A DNA stretch of 64,000 nt, taken from assembly GCF_024832785.1 (NCBI RefSeq), contig NZ_CP116615.1, positions 4,278,001 to 4,342,000 of the forward strand. Reading direction: 5' to 3'. Within the stretch, counting starts at the first letter, position 1; each line of letters opens with the position of its first letter. Of the stretch, positions 23,701-37,745 are shown in pieces. Under the pieces are notes generated by a model. The model was given only the letters and a program-made list of their open reading frames with translations, made no database searches and was not told the DNA's origin. The translations under genes were made by a program, and so were the position numbers. Source of the DNA: Fontisphaera persica. Its GTDB lineage: Bacteria; Verrucomicrobiota; Verrucomicrobiia; Limisphaerales; Fontisphaeraceae.

Positions 23701-26538
23701 CGCGTGACGCGGGACGGCGCCTTGCAACTCTCGGCCAACCTTGCCATTCAGCCATTCACCAATAACAATTTCCAAATTATTCCTTATGTCGGGCCGGTGT
23801 TTGATGCGGTGCTCGACAATACCGGCTTGCGACTGGCCGGGGGCGCGCAATTCAAGTTCGGCGACAACTTCGCCACGCCGCTGCCGCTGCCCGCCATCAC
23901 GCTGGATGCCAATGGCAACTTCTCGGTCAGCGTGGGCGCCGCGCCGCCGCTCAACTTCACCTGGCGCGGTTTTGGCATTTCCGATGCCCGCTTCACCCTG
24001 GAACGCGTGGGCCAAACCTTGCGGGTGCCCACTTTCAGCGGCATGATTCAGGTGCCTCACCTCGGCCGGCTGGCCCAGGTCAGCGGCAGTCTCAATAATG
24101 ATGGGACGTTTTTGCTATCCGGAAGTTTCGGGGGCAGTGTGAGTCTGTCGGGGGTCTCGCCGCCGCTGCCCGTTTCGGCGCTCGCCAATGGCTCGCTGAG
24201 TTTCAGCCACAACGGGTTGGTGGTGTCCGGCAACTTGAGCGGCGGCGTGCTGGACCGCTTCCCGCTCAGCGGCTCCGCCAGCGGGACCCTGACCATCACC
24301 CCGGGCAGCGTGACCTTGGGCGGCTCGGTTACCCTGCAGCCGATACAAATCGGCGCCTTCCGCATCGAAAGCGGAGCGGGCGGCGGGCTGATTACCGCCT
24401 CCTGGAGCGCGAATGAACTGCGCTGCCCGTCCAACCTGCGGCTGTTGTTCGACGGGACCACGTTGTTTAACGGGAATCTAGACGGCTTCACGCTGCAGCC
24501 CAATGGCACATTCAACATCAGCGGCGCCTTGCCCACGACGAGTTTGAAGGGCTTCAACCTCAGCGGCGGCACTTATCAGGTGCAGCGCACCGCCACCACC
24601 CTGCGCCTGCTGCTGGACAAGGCCACCCTGAGCATTCCGGGCTTCACCACCGCCTTCAATGTGACCATGGACGGCGCTCTAGAGAGCACCGGCGCCTTCA
24701 GCCTGGTCAATTCCAGTTCCCTCAGCGGCTCCTTCACCCCCGCCAGCACGCTGCCCATCAATTTCAGCGGCGCCAGCGCCGTGCAGTTCGACCAACACTC
24801 CTTGCGCGTGACCGGCACCTTCAGCGGCGGCGCGCTGGGCACCATCAACTCCGGCATCAGCATTACCGGCGAGCTTTGGGTGCAGAACAACGGCGTCATC
24901 ATCCCCTCCGCCACCTTCACCCTGCCTGAACTGATGCTCCCCGACAAAACCAGCGGTTTCCACCTGGCGCCTCCGGACGGCGGCAATTTTCAACTGGTGG
25001 TGGATGCCACCGGCGTGCGCTGGCCGGCCGGGGCGCGGTTGTACTATCGCAATACCCTTCTGGGCCAGTTTGCCTTGCCGGAATTCACCTTGCCACGCAG
25101 CGGCAATTTCTCCATCACCACTCCTGCGGTGGAGGTATCCCTGGATTCCTTTACGCTGACCGGCTCGATAACCCTTGTCCGTACCAACGGCGTAACCACC
25201 CTCTCCATCAATAACGATTCTTTGCTGCGGCTGCCTGGATTGGGAACTTCGGTCAATGTTTTCGGCACGGTGACCAATAACGGCACCTATCGCATTACTT
25301 CCTTGAAAACCGGCTCGCTGTCGCTGCCGGCGTCGTTTCCTGTGGCACAGTTCAACATCGGCTCCGCAGTCACCCTGCAACGCACCGGCGGAGTGACTCG
25401 TTTGTGGGTGGAGGGCGATGTCTCCGGCGGTTGCCTGGGCGGCTCCGGCAACGACGACCTGCGCCCCGTCAACGCCACGGCCACGCTGGATATATCCTCC
25501 AGCGGAACGCTAACCCTCAGCGGCGCGTTAACCATCCAGCCCGTGAGCGTGGGGGTCTTTCAAATCGAAGGCGCCTCGGCGGGCGCCAACGTTGCCCTGC
25601 TGTTCACCAACAACACCTTGCGTGCCACCGGCGCCCGCCTGCGCATGACCGCCGCCAATATCCTGGACCGCACGCTCAACCTGCCGGACTTTACCATTCC
25701 GGCAGATGGGCAATTCGCCATCCCCCTGTCGCCCGGCAATCTGGGCGTGCGCAACTTCCCCTTCACCAACGTCACCTGCCAGTTGGTGCGGCATGCGCCG
25801 GATGGAACCGGGCTGAACGATTTGAGCCTGGGCAACTTTTCCGGCCATCTCGGCCTGGTCAACTTCGGCCAGCGCTTCACCGGCGGCACGCTCTTCTCCT
25901 CCGGCGCGCCAGCCTTTGACTGGGAAGGCAGCCTGACGCTGGCCGGCTTCAACGCGGCGCGTGGCTACCTGCGCCTGCGCAGCTCTGGCTTGAGCGCAGG
26001 CGGCGCGTTCAATCTCACGGCGGCCGGGCGCACCTTCCACGCCGGCCTGTCTTTTGGCGGCAACATATTCACGGACGGGACTTTCAGTCTGACGGGGCGG
26101 GGCGTACTGTCCATCAACAATCTCGAGGTGCTGGAGGCCGATTACACGCTGAACAACAAGGGCATCAGCGGAACGCCGACCCTGCGGTTTGGCGACGCGA
26201 ATAAATTAAGCTGGACCCCGCCCAACTTCACCTTGATTTCTTCCTCCGGCGTGGCTTTTTCCCACAGCCTGAACTGGAGCGAAAACCTGAGCATCCTTGG
26301 CAACGCGAATATAGCCAGTTTAAGCATTTCGGCCTCGCTGTATAACACCAGCGGCAGCGGTGACTTTGAAGTGCGGCTGACGGGCAACATTACTGTGGCG
26401 GGCAATCAGGAGAGTTTTAATCAAATCCTGAATCCCACCCTGGAATTTCGCCGTAATTTTCCGCCGCCTCTCGGCCCTTGCGTGGACTTTGACCTGGCGC
26501 CGCTGCGCGCCAAGGACTGCAACTTGAGTTGGCCGTAA
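11740..26538 (+). CDS. giant secreted multi-repeat protein (4,932 residues)
   Basis: One uninterrupted frame of 14.8 kb. The N-terminus has a signal-like core (ITALLLLALLMGVAA), then two thrombospondin-type-3 calcium loops at residues 46-85 (DSDGDGLPDADE, DTDGDGAKDGDE). A short beta module follows (WRLTWNTVSNQIYHLQR...RRFYRVML), of a kind common in secreted Verrucomicrobiota proteins. Residues 200-1900 alternate beta modules with long Ala-rich helical blocks (about 440-940 and 1140-1700). Two copies of an LPGDxxVxRVxGSVxY module start near residues 942 and 1702. Residues 2400-3150 are mixed; from about 3550 to the end come tandem beta repeats of about 200 residues. There is no cell-wall sorting signal, PEP-CTERM or obvious autotransporter barrel. 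The inferred role is cell-surface adhesion, matrix or polymer binding. The next gene starts 32 nt downstream and encodes a fibre protein, so the two are probably one operon. Confidence 0.85.
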   Translation: MHRCLECPPDAGGRSPADSRGITALLLLALLMGVAAPPGRHNGPLDSDGDGLPDADEINLYGTNPYLADTDGDGAKDGDEVKASTNPLDSRSVFKLVAPPQRTPEGHWRLTWNTVSNQIYHLQRAWDDNPAATNWLTIASLTSTGATASYVDTINLPRRFYRVMLNPVAQTNLIGAGSYQFLPLDANQQPLEGSQIIIQPDGTIPPFELRLLGLVSGGANHSFYLRFPQGARLVSGLTQTLQFNTVVAAFGPDSAFRLAYPLGVTNGPLRSLPIGEVDVSFLVTLFGLPETNGLEVVLFDRFPLRILRGVFRDDGLHNAVVALEGLHLPLPGLSLAYPGFKLDMSPKTGLRLAVAGNFKVPVNSGYVPQVTVPASRPLWLHFKPDGNLKLGGRGEVEFPQGPKFMVDFTLDDPHYHLAMSAGNLHAGLLGSLADVLPAAPVGPATTDAATLNDARRRLGCFQQAIGQFSAATVGVAPPGVDTRPDAPDEAFATGSSVLRAWGFMGGCAQNLPAAGLASALTHAAQQAAAQRDLRSVVEQHCALMRLKAAQIMGGLQLGVSQQQELDAALAQAAAAVAARARSAEAVASLDNLQAVMQCLVELEQSRQTAGLPADVQLQGAMQELLQRFALFHTARLGVSNGVFSPVSGPIQALNRFAAMEELRLWVNTLALAQSLGLDAQLTAPVNEAMGQLGLRAWAILDAALAQAEARGDYAAFTDALEDALEFIALHQMGIFPDHPALAGLPTANTLNSFPARLETVFIADLSRPPLERSLANLKRDMVRLTGILRQLPPGFNYSPAPVQRAHERLEAKITQSFNVLSLLSLEDLQVLLEAGIALEEYRTRFNLAAATPWESVRLPELVTRLATKATQSNAWHALDKAMATLLAESDRLAAVSQPISRRVYLQQAAAVAAAARTVAVTLWQQEKTRRQTNPLMYVADLLLPGDIYVDRVAGSVRYHRHEKYLEGAFSGQLRLPKYDLSLTVQNASINTSGAFDLNLYGQVGIGVGANALGTLSILPRRPLRLALTEDRHLTLAGSGRVALRNGMAFEAFLTLDDPTYEFGFSASGLRFDLATNVMGYIPVIDRPRLAQLGPDVRLALNRFQASFSATAEGLSSLTDPPEFAPLGEPPDFSESVFTVSTDPLNAAASGVLLVLVAPAALGYVAADATAAQIRDATTPVVQALVRDLQKALRKTAQDCEQARAELATAAAGQRAEARRTLIRKAREAGETLVKVAEAGQKATQKQQAGALGTEGTNPAQTPEAQAARTAQRQAMEAAAAEPVTTVDPDTEIALLSSMVDYLATEQAVGGDPGQVDAAIRNYIGNVRAKMLAEHGMNEQGAVTNAAVFHQLTDEQLEKLLVGTAKFTEVGLSANDPVAVEVVQQVARSVLVRRIMLNSDALKKARQARYTTPFSGGQDVDGLRQEAEWPILTKTAQLFMDMQRFGVDNAAMPAGYDGAPGATTAADEFPRLLQGLSDNLGKRATYLTPESPQADRHYLLAVRQRDLQERLRQLRAAEQAALLKRVKTNASVPPGVLAAWQNHLNTTANRMFDEVRAWANASPVLQFPLKSALRLGRELAGLGRLLEETGQPAGPGLRGLARQQQGGAPPQLNANQAQLEAFRLEIFPKYTARVTALADAQKAWWILMRVNEVLLDGVAGKAVNDLSLLEQAGFAASESTLALGGEVLAALRQNVRLVNRPVDLSLPGDVVVERVSGSVYYRRDTGYLRGTFGGRLEFPDLQNAFFDISHATLDNQLNFAITAATAGPLPLAGARVRATVQASGAVGRALSFTGTGTLTLTNGPDFNVTVGFDTTTRTLSFDTLATELQWWRLTDKVVLFDAGFGFTLRPSAQYGQLRVIGSAGFFARTALATHKPPHQTNFYLFADHVTASATFQPGQIELTFSNGTLHLPEFFSAGLCPNVPAHAGPSVALNPQNPIRVTILPAGAGDEPELRFTGELDFYNLGVRVPEMPGLAAELCSARMLFSSSELPWFTNLNGTVHIPLPRGQTSRVDILNGAWRVDGFPSGKIRLANDVTLLNLGGTVVKLLGAGSNLCPDGNAFTVFPAAPGTLPRIRLDGAVEVTLPANLLTSTTGDVARATACGALDWDLRELPQLTLETVAFAGTFHLGGAGGLVLTNGSLTLRNLHHLFDDRPNGPDPFSIEVGGTLLVPNGPGFGLRDTKFVFNHAHPQFPGLPQFIPGTLIYDQHQWELANLIPFQVRHAELTFRQGDLPLDRLLRPTNLIVTISARLAIPPEEPVFKGEVNDLKVTFEEDGTPVFGLQSVYLSLDPGLVLTPISDVKGDIFIGGLDQNPPNPFFAGRVGGTYQTYQLTMLLAFTLTGPVGFCIDVNFGATGVPLGQTGFLWTGANGGYHFLNEFGDPCEFTAYINPETGRPKSAPAPHLPPVPAPKMNWSAFRSFLERARQQAEMFAQSVPGGRNLARNALPPADSPPAVIGPVNEFNIPCPDDCPPPTVNILCMPHPNQEKFPGKVVLKFSSIDEPTLNHVFGITQQRIQDLKNQGVNLSSNLANAIRVKVAETLPSANPAIVGAEAAQRLNQFREESLTVLEQSFREVLAAAINEQQGAELIYTVIRDVAEAGLPCPDVTFKVGGTFSYTGVSAFANVTGEGILGTTGSGGVGGKLNVLGVPMARAKLFVSATDAQGLPNPSVCGDVNVSLGPLELGTLRAQLRCDGCVSEMLAAFGRFVLGLSRTTLDHLLNKVAPQYVGYAASALPALLNDQQKIALLGEMIQLPPDLAPPGLKQMFINALGEGLDRLNPELRLCGEAKPKIFGIPLGYNLGGVAAYANKTNIIAVGSGSPAAMMAEVLGRTVVGYFAAYALAFFSMFSNEEMMFAYSVSWPNAGDMLLAGLEGRFRSPEALAAYLDETFDYVTENAIYSFSYTLSPMGLKSFDAQARVVMPNFTAHPAYTGTWVRPEDRQPPLPSRLELLLSALTNHLPGTSSGLIADPNWKGRAEDLFLAFPEGSPQRAQVAGRSFAEDYFPHGGLLGGAYLGVPRALYDAPPEELRTALNPNAPPLERLLSAITYVQEYILTMQTAGALGFYLPAPNPPSLTDTNGRPLSKRALLESINRFDFRGINPGPPYAVEQAFVTGYLEGKLLGVPIGRARLDIMPPDFDQGRPAYFRALAQLPPNQWLSDFTDGAILEFQMTQCPTINIERNFTLYLERLQRQLSEASSEAQMNAAAQQFLEEIAANLPKIKLEATLTNFHFPAAWSALVEADGAFSLGAYSPRYEPNYQPDNHSPVARARREGGLAFQGRARFKAGPVTLLDIANAEFSVLPKASGLPAVSAQLNAPVMPYELLTFRNVQIDFATDPSPRFSAAGELEIFNLGSFRLLPTSGPLLGGRMSVALANGQPAMSVYINPARLALPSLTGDTLLLHGETRNEPFTFSTTGPWNATVELTNDLNLLNIVRLGAGGLFSPMTLSGQGVSSASFSVSFGPSASVTLFPGRGGLERQVVLQPGVTGSLQVRSDGTFLLTATLGGSGLSFSGISVPAGASLQASQSGVLFTWSAGGVNGSLGLSADGTPTFNGEAELPPLNLGIFRLTGADGGNLRGAFNENGFAVNSGAKLTLLADWLQNQSLTLQSFTASNNGALDIHITSPGQLLLLSDYPFELTKFHFHRNPTNGGDGVATLALEGILRAGVTFPGLPTLNFTGTVSSAGEVHMGTWAPSALWFNFPTRNFSSSLDISAAQRLGRLRASFSLGDGAGLWALLSTNWFTGELNADGSFAFVATDAEVSLKGFGFKNIQFRFTRQGPRHAPQVHLEGDVTLPGFDGFRLGGDFRSDGGWMLVFYPPPFPMQLIPYPAFRGGVSLVFNQNGMFADGILEVPPLPPVNVTGNITNNGGFRLTGSLGSYSLLGFTMNGGTIELDRPAGGQPTLTLNGGQLTVPNLAGTHTVNGGFTNNGTFRLTGTVNSPSFNGLPVPGLSGAATLEFTHEHLSLTGNLRTDSGVLATVLPQGAAAGSIRVTRDGALQLSANLAIQPFTNNNFQIIPYVGPVFDAVLDNTGLRLAGGAQFKFGDNFATPLPLPAITLDANGNFSVSVGAAPPLNFTWRGFGISDARFTLERVGQTLRVPTFSGMIQVPHLGRLAQVSGSLNNDGTFLLSGSFGGSVSLSGVSPPLPVSALANGSLSFSHNGLVVSGNLSGGVLDRFPLSGSASGTLTITPGSVTLGGSVTLQPIQIGAFRIESGAGGGLITASWSANELRCPSNLRLLFDGTTLFNGNLDGFTLQPNGTFNISGALPTTSLKGFNLSGGTYQVQRTATTLRLLLDKATLSIPGFTTAFNVTMDGALESTGAFSLVNSSSLSGSFTPASTLPINFSGASAVQFDQHSLRVTGTFSGGALGTINSGISITGELWVQNNGVIIPSATFTLPELMLPDKTSGFHLAPPDGGNFQLVVDATGVRWPAGARLYYRNTLLGQFALPEFTLPRSGNFSITTPAVEVSLDSFTLTGSITLVRTNGVTTLSINNDSLLRLPGLGTSVNVFGTVTNNGTYRITSLKTGSLSLPASFPVAQFNIGSAVTLQRTGGVTRLWVEGDVSGGCLGGSGNDDLRPVNATATLDISSSGTLTLSGALTIQPVSVGVFQIEGASAGANVALLFTNNTLRATGARLRMTAANILDRTLNLPDFTIPADGQFAIPLSPGNLGVRNFPFTNVTCQLVRHAPDGTGLNDLSLGNFSGHLGLVNFGQRFTGGTLFSSGAPAFDWEGSLTLAGFNAARGYLRLRSSGLSAGGAFNLTAAGRTFHAGLSFGGNIFTDGTFSLTGRGVLSINNLEVLEADYTLNNKGISGTPTLRFGDANKLSWTPPNFTLISSSGVAFSHSLNWSENLSILGNANIASLSISASLYNTSGSGDFEVRLTGNITVAGNQESFNQILNPTLEFRRNFPPPLGPCVDFDLAPLRAKDCNLSWP
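11760..11797 (+). other. two tandem hairpins inside the first codons of the giant gene
   Basis: GCCCGCC (11760-11766) pairs with GGCGGGC (11774-11780) across a 7-nt loop. Immediately after, GGAGTC (11781-11786) pairs with GACTCC (11792-11797) across a 5-nt loop. They begin 20 nt after the ATG. No U-run follows, so this is not an intrinsic terminator. They could slow early translation, or mark an untranslated leader if the true start is further downstream. Confidence 0.5.
14566..17290 (+). repeat. duplicated beta module plus Ala-rich helical block in the giant protein
   Basis: The encoded sequences LPGDIYVDRVAGSVRYHR (from about 14566) and LPGDVVVERVSGSVYYRR (from about 16849) open two homologous beta modules. 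Each continues with a conserved YLxGxFxGxLxxP segment. An Ala-rich helical block precedes each copy (13080-14560 and 15160-16840). The copies are diverged at DNA level, which indicates an old internal duplication of about 2.3 kb. Confidence 0.65.
22400..26200 (+). repeat. tandem ~200-residue beta repeats in the giant protein
   Basis: An anchor motif (xxLQPxxIGxFxIE, then a Gly-rich turn, GxxxxxGARLxxxxxxL, and a LPxFTLPxxGxFxI strand) recurs at about 23740, 24330, 24915 and 25530. An earlier variant is at about 22405 (PPLNLGIFRLTGADGGN). The spacing is 585-615 nt. Between anchors each unit repeats NGGxFTNNGTFRLTGT and SLSFxHNGLxxSGNL-like strands. The repeats are recognisable only as protein. 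Confidence 0.65.
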
Positions 26539-26570
26539 TTTGTCAGCCAAACTGCGCAACCCAAACTCCC

Positions 26571-29500
26571 ATGAAAAACGCCCCATCCTTCCTGGCCGCC
26601 GGCTGGTTGTGTCTCACCCTGGCCTGGCCGGCTCTGGCGCAAACCACCGCCTTCTCCTACCAGGGAAGGCTCATCGAAAACGGCTTCCCCGCCAACGGCC
26701 TGTATGACCTCCGTTTTACGCTGTTTGACGGGCCGACCAATGCCATCCCCCTGACGCCGCCCAGTCAGGCCGCGCCCGTGGCCGTCAGCGGCGGACTGTT
26801 TCAAGTCGTGCTTGATTTTGGGCCGGGGCTGTTCACCGGCCCGGAGCGCTGGCTGGAAGTGGCGGTGCGCCCGTATGGCTCAACGGGCCCTCATGTCACG
26901 CTGGCACCGCGACAATGGATCACCGCCGCACCCTACGCCATGCACGCGCACACCGCTTCCAATTTGTTGGGGCGCGTGAGTGACACCCTCCTGTCCAGCA
27001 ACATTGCCCGGCTCAATGCGCCCGCCACCTTTACGGGAACGCTGACATTTAATCCTTCCGCCGGCCCGCCCTTTGCCGTGGGCAACACCAGCCGGATTGC
27101 CAATCTCAATGCGGACATGCTGGACGGCCTGGACAGCGCGGCCTTCGCGCGCCAAAGCCATCAACATTCTGCGGCGGACCTCACCAGCGGCGTGCTCGTG
27201 GACCAGCGGCTTTCCGGCAATGTGGCCTTGTTGAACCGCGCCCAAACCTTTACCGCCAGCAACAGTTTTCAAGGCGTGCTCACCGCCACGAATCTGACCA
27301 ACCAGATTGCCGGCGCCTTCACCGGCAGCGGCGCGGGCTTGAGCAACCTGCCTGCCGCCCGGCTGACCGGCGTGCTGCCCGAGGCTGCCGTGCCCGCCAG
27401 TGTGGCGCGCCTGGCCTCCAACCAGACCTTCACCGGCGCGCTGACCTTTGACCCGCCCACGGGTCCGCCCTTTGCGGTGACCCGTGCAGACGTGGTGGCC
27501 AATCTCAACGCGGATTTGCTGGATGGATTAAATGCCACGGACTTCTGGCGCGTGGGCGGCAATACCAACGCCGGCAACCCGGCGCTGTTGGGCACGCTGG
27601 ATAACGCGGCCCTTGAGCTGCGCGTGAACAACACGGCAGGCCTGCGGCTGTCCCCCAATCCCACCGGCGCTTCGCTGGCGCTCAATCCCGACAGCAACGT
27701 GATTCCGTCCGGGGTGCCCGGCGCCACCATTGCCGGGGGCAGTTTCAACACGGCAACCAATAATTATGCGTTTATTGGGGCTGGTTCCATGAACAAGGCG
27801 GGGGGAATAGTGGCCGCCATTGCGGGAGGATTTAATAACCAGGCCTCCGGTTATGCCGCTGCCATTCCAGGTGGGGCTGACAATATGGCCGCCGGCACGA
27901 CCAGCCTGGCGGCTGGTTCTGGCGCCCGCGCCTTGCATGACGGCGCCCTGGTCTGGTCTGACCGCAGCAGCGGACTCGCCTTTACTTCCACCGCGCCGCA
28001 TCAGGTGCTTTTCCGCGCCGCGGGCGGTATGGGCATTGGCACCAATGCGCCGCAATCCGCATTGCACGTGGCCGGCACCGTTCAAGCCACTGGCTTGAAA
28101 CTGCCGGCGGGCGCCGCCGCCGGCGCCGTGCTGGTTTCTGATGCGGACGGCGTGGCGGGCTGGCAGCCCCCGGCAGTGCGCGCTCAGACCAACGCCACCA
28201 GCCCCAATCTGATTGGCGGCCATGCGGCCAACTTCGTGGCCAACGGCGTGGTGGGCGCCACCATTGGCGGCGGTGGCAACGCGGTCAATTCCAATCAAGT
28301 CACGGTCTCTTATGGCACCATCGCCGGCGGGCGCGGCAACTCCGTGAGCGGTGCGGACGGCGCCGTTTCTGGCGGTTTGAGCAACGTGGTATCCGGGGGG
28401 GCGGCGGCGGCGGGAGGGGGCTACTTGAATACCGCTTCCGGCCCGTTTTCCACCGTGAGCGGCGGCGAAACCAATCGCGCCACCGCCAGCCATGCCACCG
28501 TGGGCGGCGGCCGCGCCAACCGCGCCTCCGAAGTGGGCGCTACCGTGGGCGGCGGCCATGCCAATCAAGCCAGCGGACCATCCGCCACCATCGCCGGCGG
28601 AACCAATAACGTCGTCTCTCTCACCGGCGGCGCGGTGGGCGGCGGCGCAAGCAACTCCGTGGCGGGCGTTTATGGCACCGTGGCCGGCGGCCTGGCCAAC
28701 TGGGCCAATGGCAGCTTTGCCGCGGTGGGCGGTGGGTGGAGCAATCGGGCCATAAACACGTATGCCACCATCCCCGGCGGCTTCAATAATTCGGCTGAAG
28801 GACTGGCCAGTTTTGCCGCCGGCGCCGGCGCGCGCGCCCTCCATACCACGGCTTTTGTGTGGGCCGACAATTCCACCACCACCACCTTCGCCAGCACGGC
28901 TGACCATCAATTTCTCATCCGCGCCAGTGGCGGCGTGGGCATCGGGGCGGCGCCGGTGGATGCCATGCTCGACGTGGAGGGCAACCTGCGCATCAATGAT
29001 GGTGATTTGTTTCTGCGGGGCGGCAGCGATCGCAATCACGGTTTTGGCTGGTATGGCTCGGGCAAACCTTTCGCCACAATTACCCCCGATGGGCCGGTGG
29101 CTTATGGCTGGTCGGGCGGCGCGTTAGGCACCAAGAGCGGGGGCGAACGCATCGCGCTGGCATGGAACAGCTCCCAGCAAGTGGGCATCGGCACGACTGC
29201 CCCCGGCAACCCCCTGGCCGTGGAAGGCACAGGCACGGCCCTGGGTGGCGTGGCCGGCTTCAATGAAGTGGTGGCCCGCTTCAAACGCACCGGCAGCGGC
29301 CACACGGCGGTGGCGGTGGATGCCCTGGCCGGGCAGGATGCCGTCCTTTATTTCTCCGAAGACGGCGTGGCCAAATGGAATCTGCGGCATGACCGGGACC
29401 CGGACGGTGCCTTCCAGTTGCGTACGCCGGACGGGACCATTCACTGGCACGTGCTCCCGGATGGCCGCATGGGCATGGGCACCACCACCCCCGGCGCCCG

Positions 29501-30584
29501 GCTGGAGCTGTATGGGCCGGATGTCACCCTGCGCCTGCGCAACGCCAATGACGCCGGCGGCGCCTTCGCCATCAACACTTTCTCCAGTCTGCAACTGGGC
29601 ATCTACGCGCCGCCCGGCGCCGCCTTTGGCATCGTGCCCGCCGGCGAGCGGAGGACGTTTTTCGCCATTGCCAACTCCGGCGTGGTCGGCTCCATGCGCG
29701 CCGCCCCCGGCAGCCCGGTCTTTCGCAACATTCTGGATGACGCCAACGGCAGCCTGGTGGTGGACGCCCAGGGATTGAACACCGGCTCGCTGGTGAATGG
29801 CTTGCGCTTGGGGGGCACGGCCAGCGGGGAAGGCATTGTTTCCAAGCGCACCAGCGGCGGCAACCAGTTTGGGCTGGACTTCCTCACCTCCTCGCAACCG
29901 CGCCTGAGCATTGCCGCCAATGGCAACGTCGGCATCGGCACCACCTCGCCCGGCGAGCGCTTCTGGGTGGAATCTCCCAATCAAACGGTGGCCGTAGTCC
30001 GCGGCACCAGCACCGGCGGCACCTGGCTGGGCCTGGAAAACGGCTCCGCCGGCGGCCAGCGCTGGTCCATCATCAGCACCGGCAGCGGCAACGGCGAAGG
30101 CCCGGGCCGCCTCCTCTTCTTCACCAGTCAATCCAGCTCCACCAAATTGCGCCTCGAACCCAACGGCGACCTGGTGGCCGCTGGCACGGTGACGGGCAGC
30201 TCGGACCGCGACCGCAAGGAAAATCTCGAAGCGGTGGAGCCGCTGGAGGTGCTGCGCAAAGTGGCGGGCCTTCGGCTGGCCACCTGGAATTACAAGGATG
30301 ACGAGGCGAAAACACGGCATTTGGGGCCAATGGCCCAGGACTTCTACGCGGCTTTCCAACTCGGCGCCGATGACAAACACATCGCCATGGTGGACGCTGA
30401 TGGCGTGGCGCTGGCGGCCATCCAGGGCCTGAATCAACTGGTGGCGGAGAAGGAGCAAAAAATCAACAATTTGCAGCAGGAAGTCGCCGCCTTGCGCGCC
30501 GCGCTGGCTGCGCAGGAAAAATCCGCCCGCCAGTGGGAAGAACGGTTGCAGGCCCTGGAGCAGCGGCTGAATGCCACGCCTTGA
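26571..30584 (+). CDS. trimeric-fibre-like protein with YadA-like head repeats and S74 self-cleaving chaperone domain
   Basis: A 1,337-residue exported protein; ATG 26571 starts the signal peptide (MKNAPSFLAAGWLCLTLAWPALA). Residues 20-130 form the FSYQGRL...YDLRFTLFDG...APYAMHA module seen at the front of many secreted Verrucomicrobiota fibres. Residues 385-465 and 560-765 are YadA/Hep-Hag-like head repeats (units such as TVGGGRANRAS). Coiled or shaft regions with repeated GxxGIGT motifs follow. From about residue 1208 comes a peptidase S74 intramolecular chaperone domain: SSDRDRKENLEAVEPLEVL carries the Ser and Lys expected for autocleavage, then LGPMAQDFYAAFQLG and a C-terminal coiled coil (NNLQQEVAALRAALAAQEK). 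By family knowledge, S74 domains trimerise phage tail spikes and then cleave themselves off. It probably shares an operon with the giant gene. Confidence 0.88.
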   Translation: MKNAPSFLAAGWLCLTLAWPALAQTTAFSYQGRLIENGFPANGLYDLRFTLFDGPTNAIPLTPPSQAAPVAVSGGLFQVVLDFGPGLFTGPERWLEVAVRPYGSTGPHVTLAPRQWITAAPYAMHAHTASNLLGRVSDTLLSSNIARLNAPATFTGTLTFNPSAGPPFAVGNTSRIANLNADMLDGLDSAAFARQSHQHSAADLTSGVLVDQRLSGNVALLNRAQTFTASNSFQGVLTATNLTNQIAGAFTGSGAGLSNLPAARLTGVLPEAAVPASVARLASNQTFTGALTFDPPTGPPFAVTRADVVANLNADLLDGLNATDFWRVGGNTNAGNPALLGTLDNAALELRVNNTAGLRLSPNPTGASLALNPDSNVIPSGVPGATIAGGSFNTATNNYAFIGAGSMNKAGGIVAAIAGGFNNQASGYAAAIPGGADNMAAGTTSLAAGSGARALHDGALVWSDRSSGLAFTSTAPHQVLFRAAGGMGIGTNAPQSALHVAGTVQATGLKLPAGAAAGAVLVSDADGVAGWQPPAVRAQTNATSPNLIGGHAANFVANGVVGATIGGGGNAVNSNQVTVSYGTIAGGRGNSVSGADGAVSGGLSNVVSGGAAAAGGGYLNTASGPFSTVSGGETNRATASHATVGGGRANRASEVGATVGGGHANQASGPSATIAGGTNNVVSLTGGAVGGGASNSVAGVYGTVAGGLANWANGSFAAVGGGWSNRAINTYATIPGGFNNSAEGLASFAAGAGARALHTTAFVWADNSTTTTFASTADHQFLIRASGGVGIGAAPVDAMLDVEGNLRINDGDLFLRGGSDRNHGFGWYGSGKPFATITPDGPVAYGWSGGALGTKSGGERIALAWNSSQQVGIGTTAPGNPLAVEGTGTALGGVAGFNEVVARFKRTGSGHTAVAVDALAGQDAVLYFSEDGVAKWNLRHDRDPDGAFQLRTPDGTIHWHVLPDGRMGMGTTTPGARLELYGPDVTLRLRNANDAGGAFAINTFSSLQLGIYAPPGAAFGIVPAGERRTFFAIANSGVVGSMRAAPGSPVFRNILDDANGSLVVDAQGLNTGSLVNGLRLGGTASGEGIVSKRTSGGNQFGLDFLTSSQPRLSIAANGNVGIGTTSPGERFWVESPNQTVAVVRGTSTGGTWLGLENGSAGGQRWSIISTGSGNGEGPGRLLFFTSQSSSTKLRLEPNGDLVAAGTVTGSSDRDRKENLEAVEPLEVLRKVAGLRLATWNYKDDEAKTRHLGPMAQDFYAAFQLGADDKHIAMVDADGVALAAIQGLNQLVAEKEQKINNLQQEVAALRAALAAQEKSARQWEERLQALEQRLNATP
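28245..28860 (+). repeat. YadA-like head repeats in the fibre gene
   Basis: About fourteen degenerate units of 13-15 residues with consensus (T/A)(V/I)(A/G)GGxxNxASGxxA. Examples are ATVGGGRANRASEVG, ATVGGGHANQASGPS and ATIAGGTNNVVS. A shorter block of the same type lies at about 27718-27930. Each block ends in a conserved ASFAAGAGARALHTTAFVW-like cap. Confidence 0.75.
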
Positions 30585-30587
30585 GCC

Positions 30588-31385
30588 TTAATCCAGCTTG
30601 CGAATCCGCACGTTTTTAATGGCGCCGGTGGTGGACCAGGCGGCAAAGCCGAACGGGCGCGACTCCTCGATTTCCCCCGGGCGCACATCAATCTTTTTCC
30701 CCTTGGTGTTCACATTGGCCACCTTTTTGTTGTCCACCCACGCCTCAATCTTGTCCGGCGTCACCCGCACGCGGAAGCGATACCACCGGCCATTTTCAAA
30801 CGCGATGAACTGGGTGGTTTCATTCTCCGAGGCGTCCATGCTGTCAATGCTCGAGATGCCCACCACCCCGCCGCCCCATCCGCCGGTGATTAACGTGCAA
30901 TGCGTCTCCCCCACCGGAAAAGTCAAACTGGCAAAGAAATCCGTGCCCGCAACCCGGCACCCTTCCCAGGTCACCTCATAATTCATGCGGGGGATGGGAT
31001 TGGTGTAGTTCACCCCGGTCATGATGCCCTCATGCAGGATGATTTTGCCGTCTTTGACCTCCACTTCTCCGTGTCCGGCAAACGGCGTGATTTTCCAGCC
31101 CTTGAGGCTTTGTCCGTCAAAAATCAATTCGCCTTCCTCCACTTCCTCTTCGGCCGGGGCCGGGGCGTTGGTGGCGCCCGCCACCGCCGGGGTGGGGCAC
31201 GTCCCGCAACCGGCGGCCGCCGCCTGGCCGCTCTTGCAGGGACAAGCGGCGCTCTTGCCGCTCTTGCAGCCGCCGCTGGTGCAAATTAAAACCAGGCTGA
31301 GGCCAAGACCCAGGGTGGGGAGAAAAAAGCGCGCCTTGCCTGCCCGAAATGGAAAACACCATGACATGCGTTTCATGGTGCCCAT
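30588..31385 (-). CDS. DUF1080 (3-keto-disaccharide hydrolase-like) exported protein with Cys-rich linker
   Basis: A 265-residue protein on the minus strand. ATG 31385 is chosen for a good Shine-Dalgarno (GGAGGAAGG about 5 nt upstream). The N-terminus is a signal sequence (ARFFLPTLGLGLSLVLICTSGGC) with a possible lipobox at SGGC. Then comes an unusual linker with seven Cys in about 25 residues (CKSGKSAACPCKSG, then CGTCP) and an acidic EEEVEEGE stretch. Residues 85-265 are a DUF1080 concanavalin-like fold: LIFDGQSLKGWKITPFAGHGEVEVKDGKI, then FENGRWYRFRVRVTPDKIEAWVDNKKVANV. Some members hydrolyse 3-keto-glycosides; others may only bind sugar. It converges with the fibre gene, with 3 nt between the stops. 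Confidence 0.82.
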   Translation of the reverse strand: MGTMKRMSWCFPFRAGKARFFLPTLGLGLSLVLICTSGGCKSGKSAACPCKSGQAAAAGCGTCPTPAVAGATNAPAPAEEEVEEGELIFDGQSLKGWKITPFAGHGEVEVKDGKIILHEGIMTGVNYTNPIPRMNYEVTWEGCRVAGTDFFASLTFPVGETHCTLITGGWGGGVVGISSIDSMDASENETTQFIAFENGRWYRFRVRVTPDKIEAWVDNKKVANVNTKGKKIDVRPGEIEESRPFGFAAWSTTGAIKNVRIRKLD

Positions 31386-31555
31386 CTTACCTTCCTCCCC
31401 GGCCAAGACCAAGCGCAAATGCAGTCGGGGCGCTGGCAGTTTTGGCGCCAGCCCGTCCCCTTTTCCCGGCGGCCCCAAAGCCCCCCGCTTTCTCCCCGCA
31501 GGCCGCGTGAGGGAGGGCCGCCCTTGAAGCGGCTGCCCGGGACACTTGGCAAACC

Positions 31556-31595
31556 GTAACATTTACGTAACAAATTAGACAAATTATCGTAACAT
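31556..31595 (+). promoter_or_regulatory. Pho-box-like array of four direct repeats
   Basis: Four 7-nt units begin at 31556, 31567, 31578 and 31589: GTAACAT, GTAACAA, GACAAAT, GTAACAT. They are separated by 4-nt spacers (TTAC, ATTA, TATC), an exact 11-nt period. PhoB-type response regulators bind 7-nt direct repeats with 4-nt AT-rich spacers, and the genes downstream encode phosphate uptake. The array ends 21 nt before the start codon and overlaps the promoter region, so either activation or repression is possible. Confidence 0.7.
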
Positions 31596-31616: not shown

Positions 31617-32246
31617 ATGATTTCGATACAAAAACTTTTGGGCAAAGATGATGTTTTCTACAATTTGCTCGAAGCCAGCGCACAGGAAGGCCTGCACAGC
31701 GCCCAGGTGTTGACCCGCCTTCTGCGGCAGCCGCAACAGCCCACCCACTTGCAGGAATTCTCGGAATTTCGCCGCAACGATAAAAAAATCACCAAGGAAA
31801 TCGAGGAGAGGCTGGTCAAGACATTTGTCACAGCTTTGGAACGGGAAGATATCGAATCGTTGTCAAGCGCGCTGTATAAAATCCCCAAGACCATCGAAAA
31901 ATTTGCGGAACGTTATCTGCAAATCCAGGCGCTGGTGAAAGACCATGACTTCACCCCCATGGCCCGGCTGGTGGAGCGGGCGGCCACTCTGGTGGGGGAA
32001 ATGGTCAAGGCCTTGCGCCGCCATGCGCCGCTGGAGGAAATGAAGGATTTGAATGGCCGGTTGCAGGAGGTGGAGGGGGAGGCGGACAAATACCTGCTGG
32101 AGGTGTTCAAGGACTTGTACGGGGGCAAGTATGAGCCGTTGCAGGTGCTGGCCTTGAAAGAGCTGCATGAGCTGCTGGAAAAAACGGTGGACCGCTGCCG
32201 CGATGCGGGCAACACCGTCACCTACATTGTGTTGAAACATTCTTGA
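31617..32246 (+). CDS. DUF47 / PhoU-like phosphate transport regulator
   Basis: A 209-residue, all-helical cytoplasmic protein of the DUF47 (PhoU-like, Pit accessory) family. Typical segments are KDDVFYNLLEASAQEGLHSAQVL at the N-terminus, DKKITKEIEERLVKTFVTALEREDIESLSSALYKIPKTIEKFAERY in the middle, and ELLEKTVDRCRDAGNTVTYIVLKHS at the end. The acidic clusters that bind metal in PhoU proteins are present (REDIESL, DRCRDAGN). DUF47 genes very often precede pit; in Sinorhizobium meliloti this pair (orfA-pit) is under PhoB control. It starts 21 nt after the Pho-box-like array and is followed 71 nt later by the Pit gene. Confidence 0.93.
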   Translation: MISIQKLLGKDDVFYNLLEASAQEGLHSAQVLTRLLRQPQQPTHLQEFSEFRRNDKKITKEIEERLVKTFVTALEREDIESLSSALYKIPKTIEKFAERYLQIQALVKDHDFTPMARLVERAATLVGEMVKALRRHAPLEEMKDLNGRLQEVEGEADKYLLEVFKDLYGGKYEPLQVLALKELHELLEKTVDRCRDAGNTVTYIVLKHS

Positions 32247-32317: not shown

Positions 32318-34051
32318 ATGGAACTGGTCATTGTGGTCATTCTGGTGGCGTTGATTTTCGAGTACATCAACGGATTTCACGACACCGCCAACTCCATTGC
32401 CACGGTGGTTTCCACCAAGGTGCTCACGCCGCGCCAGGCGGTGATTATGGCCGCCCTGGCCAACCTGGGCGGGGCGATGCTCGGCACGGCCGTGGCCAAG
32501 ACCATTTCCTCCGGCTTGATTGACAGCAAGGTGGTGACCGTCACCTCCGAGATGCTGGTTTGCGCCCTCCTGGGCGGGATTACCTGGAATCTGATTACCT
32601 GGTGGTTTGGCATGCCCTCCAGCTCCAGTCATGCGCTGATTGGCGGGTTGTGCGGCGCCGCCCTGGCCGGCGCCAAAGGCAACTGGCAGGCCATTATCTG
32701 GTCGCAGCCCAACCCCAGTGACTGGCTCAAGAGCGGCGGACTTTTGTACAAGGTGGTCATTCCCATGTTCAGCTCCCCCCTGGGCGGTTTTGTGCTGGGC
32801 TTCCTCATTATGGGCCTCCTTTATCTCCTGGTCACGCTGTTGCGGCTGACGCCGCGCATTGTCAATCTCACCTTCGGCAAGGCCCAAATCCTGAGCGCCG
32901 CCGCCATGGGGGTTATGCACGGCACCAATGACGCCCAGAAAACCATGGGCATCATTGCCCTGGCGCTCATGGCCGCCACCACCGCCGGCACTTTTGACCA
33001 ACTGCCCCGCTATTTGAACTGGCTGTATTATCCCACCACCACCCCCGTGGTGTACGAGGCCTTCAATCAACTGGGTGAAATGGCCCGCGACGGCCAGGGC
33101 CTGCCGCAAAACCTGCCTCACGCCGCCAGCGACTTCAAACATGCCGCCGAGAAAAACAACGCCAACGCCCAATATAATCTGGCGTTGCTTTACCTGGAGG
33201 GCCGCGGGGTCGAGGTCAACTACCGCCTGGCGGCCGAATGGCTCGAGCGCGCCGCCAAAAACCAGCATCGCCAGGCCCGGGAAAAACTGGCCGAGCTTTA
33301 TCAAAAAGGCATGGGAGTCCCCAAAGACGAAGCCCGGGCGGCGGCGTTGCTGGAAAATCTACCTCCCCCCTCCCCACCGTTCACCATTCCCCGGCGCAAA
33401 CTGGACGGCCAGCCCGCCGTGGAGGCCGAGGCCCTGGCCTGGCTCCAGGCACGGGTGGCCCGCAACAATGCCGAGGCCCAGTCCGTGCTGGCCGCGTGGT
33501 ACTGGCATGGGGTTGGGGGACTGCCCCAGGACCGCGCCCAGGCGGTGCGCTTGTGGCAGCAGAGTGCGCAACGCAATCATCCCGAAGCCCTCTACTGCCT
33601 GGGCGTGCTCCATCGGCACGGCGTGGAGTTGCCGCAGGATTTGCCGCAGGCAGTCCGCTATTTTCATCGGGCGGCGAAAATGGAGGGCATCAAGCTCTGG
33701 ATTAAAGTCGTTTGCGCCATCACCATGGCGGCCGGCACCGCCGCCGGCGGCTGGCGCATCATCAAAACGCTCGGCCATAAAATGGTGAAGCTGCAGCCCA
33801 TCAACGGCTTTGCCGCGGAAACCAGCTCGGCCACCATGATTTTTCTGGCCACCACTTTGGGCATTCCCGTCTCCACCACCCACAACATCTCCGCGGCCAT
33901 CATGGGCGTGGGTTGCGCCCGGCGCTTCAACGCCTTGCGCTGGACCGTGGTGGAGCGCATGGTCTGGGCATGGGTCCTGACCATTCCCATTTCCGGCGGC
34001 CTGGGATATTTGCTGTGCCGCCTGGGCCAGTGGGCCGGATGGATTCAGTAA
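32318..34051 (+). CDS. pit: Pit-family phosphate transporter with Sel1-repeat insertion
   Basis: A 577-residue inner-membrane protein. Residues 1-225 are the first PHO4 half (FEYINGFHDTANSIATVVSTKVL with the GFHDTANS signature; MPSSSSHALIGGL; MGVMHGTNDAQKTMGIIALAL). Residues 458-577 are the second half (LWIKVVCAITMAAGTAAGGWRIIKTLGHKM; GFAAETSSATMIFLATTLGIPVSTTH). Ordinary short Pit proteins (about 330 residues) join these halves by a short loop. Here about 210 residues are inserted, holding at least five Sel1-like repeats: about 247-282, 283-318, 319-349, 386-422 and 423-457, with units such as AQYNLALLYLEGRGVEVNYRLAAEWLERAAKN. Both transport signatures are intact, so proton- or sodium-driven phosphate uptake is expected. 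The insert would face the cytoplasm by Pit topology. GGGG near -9 is a weak ribosome site. Confidence 0.92.
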   Translation: MELVIVVILVALIFEYINGFHDTANSIATVVSTKVLTPRQAVIMAALANLGGAMLGTAVAKTISSGLIDSKVVTVTSEMLVCALLGGITWNLITWWFGMPSSSSHALIGGLCGAALAGAKGNWQAIIWSQPNPSDWLKSGGLLYKVVIPMFSSPLGGFVLGFLIMGLLYLLVTLLRLTPRIVNLTFGKAQILSAAAMGVMHGTNDAQKTMGIIALALMAATTAGTFDQLPRYLNWLYYPTTTPVVYEAFNQLGEMARDGQGLPQNLPHAASDFKHAAEKNNANAQYNLALLYLEGRGVEVNYRLAAEWLERAAKNQHRQAREKLAELYQKGMGVPKDEARAAALLENLPPPSPPFTIPRRKLDGQPAVEAEALAWLQARVARNNAEAQSVLAAWYWHGVGGLPQDRAQAVRLWQQSAQRNHPEALYCLGVLHRHGVELPQDLPQAVRYFHRAAKMEGIKLWIKVVCAITMAAGTAAGGWRIIKTLGHKMVKLQPINGFAAETSSATMIFLATTLGIPVSTTHNISAAIMGVGCARRFNALRWTVVERMVWAWVLTIPISGGLGYLLCRLGQWAGWIQ

Positions 34052-34233: not shown

Positions 34234-35421
34234 GTGCGAAATGAGTATTCCATTTCGGCCTACTTTCCGGGGCGATATGAAGAGCTGCGGCTTGCCGCGT
34301 GGGCGCAGGAGCTGCGGCAGCAGTTGAGCCGTCCGCCCACGCTGGGGCTGGTTTTTTTGAGTCCCGATTGGGCCGAGCATGCCGGTGAAGCGCTGGAACT
34401 GATTCAAGTGCATGCGCGGGTGCCCTTGCTGGCCGGCTGCAGCGGCATGGGGTTGATTGCCGGCTCCCGGGAATACGAGGACACCCCCGGCGCGGTGCTG
34501 GGCTTGTATCATTTGCCGGGCGCGACGGTGCGCGGCTTTCACCTGACCCAATCCCAGGTGCTGGAGGCCGACAACCGGCAATACTGGTATGCTGAGACCG
34601 GCATTGGCCGCGAACAAACCAACGGCTGGCTGGCTTTTGCGGACCCCTACACGTTGGATTCTGAAACCTGGCTCAAGCAATGGAATGAGGCCTATCCCGG
34701 CCTGCCGGTGGTGGGCGGCCTGGCCAGCGGAGTGCCCTCCCTGCGCAGCACGCAGGTGTACTTGAATAACCAGGCTTTCGATGACGGCGCGGTGGTGGTG
34801 TCCCTGGGTGGTGAAGTCAAGCTGGGCGCCGTAATCTCGCAGGGGTGCACCCCCATCGGCGAGCCTTGGACCATCACCCAAAGTGAACGCAATTTCATCC
34901 GCCAAATTGGCAACCGCCCGGCTTACAAAGTGTTGTTGGACACGTTTCACGCCCTGGATTTGGAGGAGCAAAAGAAGGCCCGCGGCAATTTGTTCATCGG
35001 CCTGGCCATGAGCGAGTATGTCGAGCAATTTCATCGGGGCGACTTCCTGATTCGCAATCTGCTCGGAGGCGATCCCAATTCCGGCGCGCTGGCGGTGGGG
35101 GCCTGGCCCCGCACCGGGCAGACCATCCAGTTTCAGCGCCGCGACGCCGAGGCGGCCACCGAGGACATGATTGCCCTCCTCACCCGCGCCCGGGAGATGT
35201 GGCAGGGGCACACCCTATATGGCGGGTGTTTGTTTGCCTGCAATGGCCGGGGAGTGGGCTTGTTTGGCGCGCCCGACCATGACGCCAATCTTGTGCAGCA
35301 ACACCTCGGGCCGCTGGGAGTGTCCGGCTTTTTCTGCAACGGTGAGATTGGCCCGGTGGGGCCGCGCAATTACCTCCACGGTTACACCGCCGCGGTGGGG
35401 GTTTTCATGAATCTCATTTAA
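34234..35421 (+). CDS. FIST-domain sensory protein
   Basis: A 395-residue cytoplasmic protein with FIST N (about residues 30-215) and FIST C (about 225-375) domains. The signatures visible are TLGLVFLSPDWAEHAGEALELI, PLLAGCSGMGLIAG, LPVVGGLASGVPS, DDGAVVVSLGG, the GYTAAVG end, and CLFACNGRGVGLFGAPDHDANLV. FIST proteins are thought to sense small ligands, perhaps amino acids, and are often fused or linked to signalling domains. Here it is a stand-alone protein with no chemotaxis, GGDEF or kinase gene beside it. The start is GTG 34234; no Shine-Dalgarno is present. The upstream terminator isolates it from the phosphate operon. Confidence 0.9.
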   Translation: MRNEYSISAYFPGRYEELRLAAWAQELRQQLSRPPTLGLVFLSPDWAEHAGEALELIQVHARVPLLAGCSGMGLIAGSREYEDTPGAVLGLYHLPGATVRGFHLTQSQVLEADNRQYWYAETGIGREQTNGWLAFADPYTLDSETWLKQWNEAYPGLPVVGGLASGVPSLRSTQVYLNNQAFDDGAVVVSLGGEVKLGAVISQGCTPIGEPWTITQSERNFIRQIGNRPAYKVLLDTFHALDLEEQKKARGNLFIGLAMSEYVEQFHRGDFLIRNLLGGDPNSGALAVGAWPRTGQTIQFQRRDAEAATEDMIALLTRAREMWQGHTLYGGCLFACNGRGVGLFGAPDHDANLVQQHLGPLGVSGFFCNGEIGPVGPRNYLHGYTAAVGVFMNLI

Positions 35422-35492: not shown

Positions 35493-37745
35493 ATGGCAGG
35501 CAGGGCTTCCGTACGGGCACGGGAGCGCCATGAGTCGGACGTGCAAGCAACCCAGGCATGGCATTACCTTGTGGGCGCGGGGCGGCTGTGGTTGGCCGCC
35601 GCCGCCGCTTTTTGTGGCCTGCTCCACGGCCAGGCGGCCGAGGAAACCTTGAACCCTCCCCTGACCCCTCCTCCGGCCCTCTGGCCCGTGACGTTCACCG
35701 AAACGGCGCCAGTTCTGGACGGGCGCCTGGACGATGCCTGTTGGGCCAAGGCTCCCGCGTTCACCAATTTTACCCAGGTCCTGCCGGTGGAAGGCGCGGC
35801 GCCGTCGGAGGCCACGGAGGTGCGCCTGCTTTTCACGCGGGATTATTTATACCTCGGAGTGCGCTGCTTTGACCGGCAACCGCACGCGATTCTGGCCAGA
35901 CAAATGCAGCACGATGCCAACCTCCGCAGCGATGATTATTTCATGGTGGCCCTCGATACCTTCAACCGCCAGCGTGAGGGCTATTATTTCATGGTCAACC
36001 CCGCCGGCGTGCGGGTCGAAGGTTTGATTGAAAACTTCAGCGTGGCCAACAAATCCTGGGACACCCTCTGGCACGCCCATGCGCGCCGCGATGCGCAGGG
36101 ATGGACGGCGGAAATGGCTATTCCCTTTCGCAGCCTGGGGTTTGACCCCCAGACCAACGCCTGGGGCTGCAACTTTGAACGCTGCATTCGCCGCAACCAG
36201 GAGCTGCTCCGCTGGACGGCCGTAAGCCCCGCCAAAGCCATGACCACCCTGGCGGATTTTGGCCAGATTCATGGCCTGCATCAGTTGCGCCAGGGGCGCG
36301 GGCTGGAGCTGCGGCCCTTTGCCGGCGGCAAATTCCGCGATGACCGCCTCAATCAGCGGCAACAATGGGAGTTCCGGCCAGGGCTGGATGTGACCTATCA
36401 AATCACCCCCATGCTCAAGTTACAGGGCACCTTGAACACCGACTTTGCCGAGGCCGAAGTGGACGAGCGGGTGGTGAATCTGACCCGGTTTCCCCTCTTC
36501 TTCCCCGAAAAGCGGGACTTTTTTCTGCAGGACGCCTCCGTGTGGCGCTTTGGCGGACTGACCTATTCGCCGCTGCCCTATTATTCCCGCCGCATCGGGC
36601 TGGCCGAAGACGGCACGCCGGTGGACATTATGGGGGGCGCCCGGCTCACCGGGCGGTTGAATGGCGCCACGCTGGGGCTGCTCAATGTCCAGCAGGAGGC
36701 CTACCGCGACGTCCCTTCCAAAAACCTCACCGTCGCCCGTTTTTCGCATCAGGTCTTCGAGGAGTCCAATGTGGGGGTGATGCTCACCCATGGCGATCCC
36801 CGCCGGCGCGGAGACAACACCGTGGTGGGAGCCGACTTCAATTACCTGAACAGCCGGCTCGCCGACAACCGGCAGCTCCTGGGGCACGCTTTCTGGTTGA
36901 TGAGTGATTCGGAAGCCAGAGGCGGGCGCGGCCTGGCCTGGGGCTTCAAGCTGGACTTTCCCAATGAGCCGCTGGAGGCCGAGGCCATTTTCCGGCAGGT
37001 GGACGCGCGTTTTGATCCGGCGCTGGGGTTTGTTTCCCGGCGGGACATCCGCCAGTACATCCTGGGCGCGCGCTACCTCTGGCGCCTGAACACCCGCCTG
37101 CTGCGCTCGGTGTCCTTGGGGCTGCGCCCCACCTGGGCCACCGATACCAGCAGGCGGCTCATCGAGGAGGATTATGATTTGCCTTACCTCTCCTTGACCA
37201 CGCCGGCGGGCGACTCCTGGTACGTGGAATACTCCTTAAACCGCGATGTCGTGGATGCCCCCTTTGAAATGTGGCCGGGCGTCTGGATTCCGGCCGATGA
37301 TTATGGCTGGGGCGGATTTCGCACGTTCATCCGCACCAGCGAAGCGCGGCCGCTGAGCGTCTTTTTGAACTTTCGGCACGGCGATTATTACCACGGCACC
37401 CGGCAGGATTACCTGAGTGAACTCACCTGGCGCCCCTCCAGCCACTGGTTGTGGGGACTCAATTACCAACTGCGCCGTGTCCGTTTGCCCAGCGGGGATT
37501 TTGACGCCCGCCTGGTTGGCCTGCGGCTGAATCTCACCTTCACGCCCAACCTCTCCTGGAACAACCTGGTGCAATACGAGAACCAAACCCGCTCCGCGGG
37601 CTGGAACAGCCGGTTGCGCTGGACCTTCCGCCCCGGCAGCGATGCGTACCTGGTTTTCAACCAGGGCATGGCCCTGGACGAGTGGCGGCTCAGCCGCCAG
37701 TGGAGCGAGCTTTCCTGCAAAGTGGTGGTGACCCTCCGTTTCTAG
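35493..37745 (+). CDS. DUF5916 outer-membrane protein with CBM9-like domain
   Basis: A 750-residue protein. A CBM9-like carbohydrate-binding beta sandwich lies at about residues 65-260 (APVLDGRLDDACWAKAPAFTNFTQVLP, RLLFTRDYLYLGVRCFD, GWTAEMAIPFRSLGF). It is followed by a DUF5916 C-terminal region rich in alternating beta strands that end in an aromatic residue (VTLRF), as expected of an outer-membrane barrel. TLNTDFAEAEVDERVVNLTRFPLFFPEKRDFFLQDA is the hallmark segment of the family. The annotated start gives an unusually long polar stretch before the signal peptide (LWLAAAAAFCGLLHGQAAEE). A GTG at 35570 would give a normal one and may be the true start. Substrate and export role are unknown. 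Confidence 0.85.
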   Translation: MAGRASVRARERHESDVQATQAWHYLVGAGRLWLAAAAAFCGLLHGQAAEETLNPPLTPPPALWPVTFTETAPVLDGRLDDACWAKAPAFTNFTQVLPVEGAAPSEATEVRLLFTRDYLYLGVRCFDRQPHAILARQMQHDANLRSDDYFMVALDTFNRQREGYYFMVNPAGVRVEGLIENFSVANKSWDTLWHAHARRDAQGWTAEMAIPFRSLGFDPQTNAWGCNFERCIRRNQELLRWTAVSPAKAMTTLADFGQIHGLHQLRQGRGLELRPFAGGKFRDDRLNQRQQWEFRPGLDVTYQITPMLKLQGTLNTDFAEAEVDERVVNLTRFPLFFPEKRDFFLQDASVWRFGGLTYSPLPYYSRRIGLAEDGTPVDIMGGARLTGRLNGATLGLLNVQQEAYRDVPSKNLTVARFSHQVFEESNVGVMLTHGDPRRRGDNTVVGADFNYLNSRLADNRQLLGHAFWLMSDSEARGGRGLAWGFKLDFPNEPLEAEAIFRQVDARFDPALGFVSRRDIRQYILGARYLWRLNTRLLRSVSLGLRPTWATDTSRRLIEEDYDLPYLSLTTPAGDSWYVEYSLNRDVVDAPFEMWPGVWIPADDYGWGGFRTFIRTSEARPLSVFLNFRHGDYYHGTRQDYLSELTWRPSSHWLWGLNYQLRRVRLPSGDFDARLVGLRLNLTFTPNLSWNNLVQYENQTRSAGWNSRLRWTFRPGSDAYLVFNQGMALDEWRLSRQWSELSCKVVVTLRF

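Follow-up and report, generated by a model that had tools for sequence, protein, structure and literature searches.

A Pit-family phosphate transporter of Fontisphaera persica with a Sel1 solenoid in loop L7, a loop that probably faces the periplasm

We analysed a window of 64,000 nucleotides of the Fontisphaera persica genome, in which one gene encodes a phosphate transporter of the Pit family that carries a long insert of Sel1 repeats. By computation, the protein combines a Pit fold with a Sel1 fold located in loop L7, the loop after the C-terminal PiT signature, and its insert is homologous to inserts in Pits from other families of the same order. The carrier transporters do not form one clade. 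We see an even chance that the protein is a Pit symporter in which a Sel1 solenoid enlarges the periplasmic loop L7 and docks a periplasmic protein at the side of phosphate uptake. The features of the locus are collected in Table 1.

Table 1. Features of the Sel1-Pit locus, with positions in the window and residues of the 577-aa protein
Feature	Position	Strand	Basis
3-keto-disaccharide hydrolase domain gene	30588-31562		
DUF47/PhoU_div gene (Pit accessory protein), 209 aa, upstream of Pit	31617..32246	+	Pfam PF01865, 1.7e-10
Pit/PHO4 phosphate transporter with Sel1 insert, 577 aa	32318..34051	+	Pfam, AF2, fold search
N-terminal transporter part, residues 1-226, ending just past the C-terminal PiT signature helix	32318..32995	+	Pfam PHO4; AF2 helices 2-222
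N-terminal PiT signature GFHDTANS, residues 19-26	32372..32395	+	sequence; largely invariant in 44-row alignment
C-terminal PiT signature HGTNDAQKTMG, residues 201-211, upstream of insert	32918..32950	+	sequence; PMC3126765
Sel1 solenoid insert in loop L7, residues ~241-456, probably periplasmic	33038..33685	+	Pfam Sel1; AF2; Foldseek/VIA; topology
Proline-rich linker inside insert, residues 347-368	33356..33421	+	insert alignment; full-length profile match
C-terminal transporter part, residue 458 to stop, with GGWRIIKT and STTH motifs	33689..34051	+	Pfam PHO4; AF2
FIST protein gene, downstream of Pit	34234-35421		
DUF5916/CBM9 gene	35493-37745		

The transporter frame begins with ATG and is open throughout, and Pfam PHO4 (PF01384) matches residues 18-562 at 1.6e-98 and 330.3 bits (cutoff 33.7), covering columns 1-349 of the 350 in the profile. 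Both PiT signatures are present with their transport-critical residues, and the STTH motif follows at residues 519-522. In an alignment of 44 rows, H201, G202 and N204-G211 of the C-terminal signature are invariant, as are the motif residues D22, N25, S102-H105, H201, N204, D205 and S519-T521. The solved structure of Thermotoga maritima PiT (PDB 6L85) has the same transporter fold and aligns with residues 1-574 at Z 41.9; the 331 aligned residues, which leave out the insert, have an rmsd of 2.1 (VIA-align 2). That protein has a short L7 without a solenoid, and an extra segment of its own lies between its halves, before the signature. NCBIfam PitA (NF033774) gives 135.7 bits, far under its curated cutoff of 800, so the protein falls outside PitA as that model defines it. 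The protein is apparently a functional Pit-family phosphate symporter, and the DUF47 neighbour, together with a phoU context in one other carrier genome (G041), bears on transport activity circumstantially. The first-pass annotation had described both PHO4 halves with intact signatures and no frameshift, which is what we find; a frameshift or two fused genes can be ruled out, as both transporter parts lie in one frame and the fold is intact.

The host has a second Pit of 418 aa with an ordinary L7 and its own DUF47 gene (L188:2655-3908, minus strand, G000:C1). It carries about 45-60 extra residues between helices 4 and 5, in a loop that probably faces outward.

For the insert, Pfam Sel1 (PF08238) reports four stretches on the whole protein at 2.4e-29 and 101.2 bits against a cutoff of 30.7, and 108.8 bits when the loop is searched alone with short flanks. 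On one common measure, the loop at the insert site is 248 aa long here and 33-40 aa in 107 ordinary relatives, while counted from the end of the signature it is 265 aa here, against about 50-57 in ordinary relatives on a nearly identical measure. An AlphaFold2 model of the whole chain, with the 44-row alignment as input, has a mean pLDDT of 93.8 and a pTM of 0.90. It contains 11 helices between residues 243 and 453, namely five helix pairs and one lone helix, and the predicted solenoid would hold five or six Sel1-like repeats. Residues 245-456 of the model match Sel1 proteins over a range of Z 14-18, with Z 18.1 to 8SXQ and 15.5 to HcpC (VIA-align 2), as expected of a helix-pair solenoid. The first-pass annotation had proposed that Sel1-like repeats replace the usual short loop and had suggested a Pfam Sel1 search of the insert; the profile scores, the helix pairs and the structural matches all bear it out. 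ExoR and HcpC share the repeat family and fold of the insert, but they are free secreted proteins, whereas the solenoid described here is a loop of a transporter. A second Sel1-Pit, from another family, also yields a confident AlphaFold2 model (pLDDT 90.2, pTM 0.83).

The host genome, of 4.73 Mb, is assembled as one contig, and the frame recurs with the same architecture in a congeneric genome. Because the second species of the genus shares the architecture, the insert is not a product of assembly, and the single host contig and the presence of the insert in other families likewise rule out a chimera. Between the two congeners the insert diverges faster than the transporter: 75% of its residues are identical, as against about 95% of those in the transporter halves. 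Its dN/dS of about 0.11-0.15 is looser than that of the transporter, and the insert is under purifying selection between the congeners.

Among 320 genomes from the order, a Sel1-type Pit was found in 8, which span five families. The carriers are F. persica and its congener (G000 and G001), three members of one family (G290, G230 and G277 of f7), and single genomes of three others (G175 of f62, G041 of f40 and G112 of f51), with two of the eight Sel1-Pits cut by contig ends. Pfam Sel1 scores above its cutoff in G175, G290, G230, G041 and G112. The G277 fragment gives weak TPR matches only, yet its insert shares 56-67% identity with the inserts of G290 and G230. PHO4 itself occurs in 214 of 293 sampled genomes, mostly in frames about 370 aa long. 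No Sel1-Pit turned up among 384 genomes of the class beyond the order, nor, with a strict E cutoff, among 388 genomes of the phylum, 246 genomes from the phylum of a Planctomycetaceae genome, or 229 genomes from the class of a Lysobacter genome. One MAG contig titled Akkermansia muciniphila (L067, CAMCWI010000007.1) contains a Sel1-Pit and is also a contig of G175, a member of the window's order; its label looks wrong. A further locus, L077, bears the same Akkermansia muciniphila label, and its Pit groups with members of the order.

We found no description of a Sel1-bearing Pit in the open-access full-text literature, a weak negative given that subscription literature mostly falls outside that scope. 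This is in line with the first-pass annotation, which knew of no described Pit of this kind. A long L7 as such is already known in Escherichia coli PitA.

When the inserts are stripped from the host transporters, the latter do not group by insert. A tree of 115 rows requires the Sel1 label to change four times, and well-supported branches force three of these changes; in a careful tree of 54 rows a single clade of Sel1 hosts is rejected by 168.6 log units (p-AU 0.0013). The transporter halves of the G175 Sel1-Pit are nearest to those of an ordinary Pit (L176, in G186), with 86% identity in the N half and 89% in the C half. The inserts of different families, for their part, align with the same layout and with the proline-rich linker in the same place. 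A profile built from six inserts of other families matches the window insert in one piece over 220 columns at 136.7 bits. Against free Sel1 proteins encoded in the same genomes it scores no higher than 69.5 bits, and the matches are fragments that span about 110 columns or less. To judge from their sequences, then, the inserts of different families are homologous. Separate insertions from the hosts' own Sel1 proteins are disfavoured by the difference between the one-piece and the piecemeal scores, and the rejection of a single host clade disfavours the idea that the insert arose once and was then simply inherited vertically or passed on with the whole gene. Either a cassette has moved between Pit genes, or the insert is ancestral and has been lost many times by replacement.

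Sel1 repeats are one of several domains found in this loop. In several families of the class, Pits bearing HGLADAQKTM as their signature have a helical L7 insert of a different, unrelated kind, about 125 residues long and without a domain match above cutoff. Their signature stands in place of HG(T/S)NDAQKTM, with an A for an N that is otherwise invariant, in L146-L154, L156, L165 and L023, which are members of the class and the order. The Pits of G013 and G686 have further L7 inserts without Sel1. That of G686, a genome of the same phylum, is a 564-aa Pit of the HGLAD type (L223) with an L7 insert of about 200 aa; neither Pfam nor the Sel1 cassette profile matches this insert, and despite its similar span we do not count it as a ninth Sel1-Pit. 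A 67-residue version of L7 also recurs. The length of L7 thus changes in discrete steps, and the transporter is constant. A broader and more tentative possibility, to which we give somewhat less than an even chance, is that L7 of Verrucomicrobiota Pits is an exchangeable periplasmic module slot. Recombination in the conserved flanks would have brought one ancestral Sel1 cassette, and independently of it other helical domains, into otherwise ordinary Pits or out of them, so that each transporter has a lineage-specific periplasmic domain for docking or gating. Elsewhere among the sampled genomes, three contigs (G036:C67, G053:C17 and G177:C308) hold single frames of 724-757 aa with two complete PHO4 matches in tandem, which suggests fused duplicated Pits.

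The insert separates the helix of the C-terminal signature from the conserved helix that follows it, and begins about 30 residues past the signature (from about residue 226-241). In the numbering of Bottger and Pedersen, the loop after the C-terminal signature is L7, and L6, the large loop of PiT proteins on the cytoplasmic side, comes before that signature (PMC3126765). Topology models of PiT proteins disagree on the termini. L7 of human PiT1 and PiT2 is highly likely to be extracellular, because stretches of it swapped into a fungal PiT confer retrovirus receptor function (PMC3126765). Human PiT1 and PiT2 (SLC20A1/A2) resemble the window protein in having a large extra loop, but theirs is intracellular and precedes the C-terminal signature, whereas the insert studied here follows it, where these proteins have the extracellular loop that retroviruses exploit. 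PiT2 can transport without its intracellular loop (L6; "loop7" in PMC5736545), to which MAP1B binds (PMC5736545). E. coli PitA (NP_417950.1) is a PiT member whose unusually long L7 (PMC3126765) is enlarged at the same position, with 172 residues from HGAND to GW counted from the signature start, although its inserted stretch is shorter than that of the window protein.

Charge distribution agrees with this placement. Across 131 aligned Pits, in which K/R and D/E were counted per ten residues of each segment, the loops at 30-40, 170-190, 479-495 and 534-545 carry 1.6-2.4 K/R per ten and almost no D/E, and the remaining segments, including both flanks of the insert, carry 0-0.9 K/R per ten. Positively charged loops are cytoplasmic under the positive-inside rule, and these counts would therefore put the four positive loops in the cytoplasm, both termini outside, and the insert in the periplasm. 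The Sel1 insert thus very probably faces the periplasm and not the cytoplasm, a placement carried over to this organism from homology and charge distribution. By its position after the signature and by these charges, the protein is of the enlarged extracellular L7 type seen in E. coli PitA, and not of the eukaryotic type with a large intracellular L6 domain.

The first-pass annotation had argued from Pit topology that the insert is cytoplasmic and could bind the DUF47 protein or another regulator, and neither part of this agrees with our results. The encoded DUF47 protein, which starts with MISIQKLLG and has no evident signal peptide, is a neighbour here, and a DUF47 gene adjoins or lies near all eight Sel1-Pits, which speaks for this reading. 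DUF47 is, however, also immediately upstream in 144 of 162 ordinary Pit frames that lack an insert and have enough flank, a count in which the loci are partly redundant, and its adjacency is therefore no evidence for what the insert binds. Ordinary Verrucomicrobiota Pits with DUF47 (L176 in G186, L184 in G026) share the family and signatures with the window protein, usually with DUF47 adjacent, but their L7 has just 33-40 residues and no Sel1 repeats. DUF47 is thus a general companion of Pits, probably situated across the membrane from the insert. Furthermore, S. aureus PitA showed no two-hybrid interaction with the proteins tested, a result whose negatives the authors treat with caution (PMC11705898). 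With the topology added, we reject a cytoplasmic platform for DUF47 and regard the whole reading as very improbable.

In the docking reading, which we prefer, the solenoid would lie at the periplasmic surface of the inner membrane, where phosphate is taken in, and would bind a periplasmic protein there, by analogy with ExoR, a periplasmic protein of six Sel1 repeats that binds the periplasmic domain of the sensor kinase ExoS (PMC4550343). Candidate partners would be a second transporter, a phosphatase, a protein linked to a porin or the periplasmic domain of a sensor, and such docking may tie uptake to phosphate supply or sensing. Both the docking and its purpose are things that we infer. Cytoplasmic control via DUF47, if any, would stay as in ordinary Pits. 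The hydrolase-domain, FIST and DUF5916/CBM9 genes beside the Pit and DUF47 pair suggest no candidate partner. Further upstream lies a repeat-rich frame of 1351 aa (26529-30584, plus strand) with a C-terminal Peptidase_S74 domain (endosialidase chaperone), as in self-cleaving fibre-like proteins. In G041, two DUF47 genes lie downstream of the Sel1-Pit and a divergent gene lies upstream, with more frames that are pst-like. The divergent gene (L187:2062-3213, minus strand), which stands beside pst-like frames, encodes a fusion of PhoU with a low-molecular-weight phosphotyrosine phosphatase (PF01895 at 9.1e-37, PF01451 at 1.6e-10).

It is also conceivable, if rather unlikely, that the solenoid needs no partner protein and forms an intramolecular cap or funnel over the outer vestibule that tunes phosphate access or affinity. 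The insert is set between two transport helices, and the whole-chain pTM of the model suggests a defined placement in preference to a floppy tether. Unrelated helical domains occupy the same spot in other Verrucomicrobiota Pits, and with the long L7 of E. coli PitA it is possible that bulk in this loop aids transport generally. Sel1 solenoids, however, are best known as protein-binding surfaces. Unlikely, and slightly more so, is a tolerated passenger, that is, a Sel1 segment that landed in a permissive loop and is kept folded but dispensable. The patchy distribution of Sel1-Pits among the genomes of the order would fit such a passenger, as would the fast divergence of the insert relative to the transporter and the ordinary sister of the G175 protein, which lacks the insert while its transporter halves are so similar. 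On the other hand, purifying selection acts on the insert, its architecture has been kept in five families, and a profile built without the window's genus still matches it at full length.

The usual view of Pit transporters is of bare permeases, regulated through their expression or through accessory proteins in the cytoplasm. A solenoid for binding proteins on the periplasmic side, at the uptake face, suggests another point of control or coupling, and the neglected long L7 of E. coli PitA gains interest as a result. Homologous inserts in unrelated hosts, set against unrelated inserts in the same loop, provide a natural set for understanding the roles of L7 domains.
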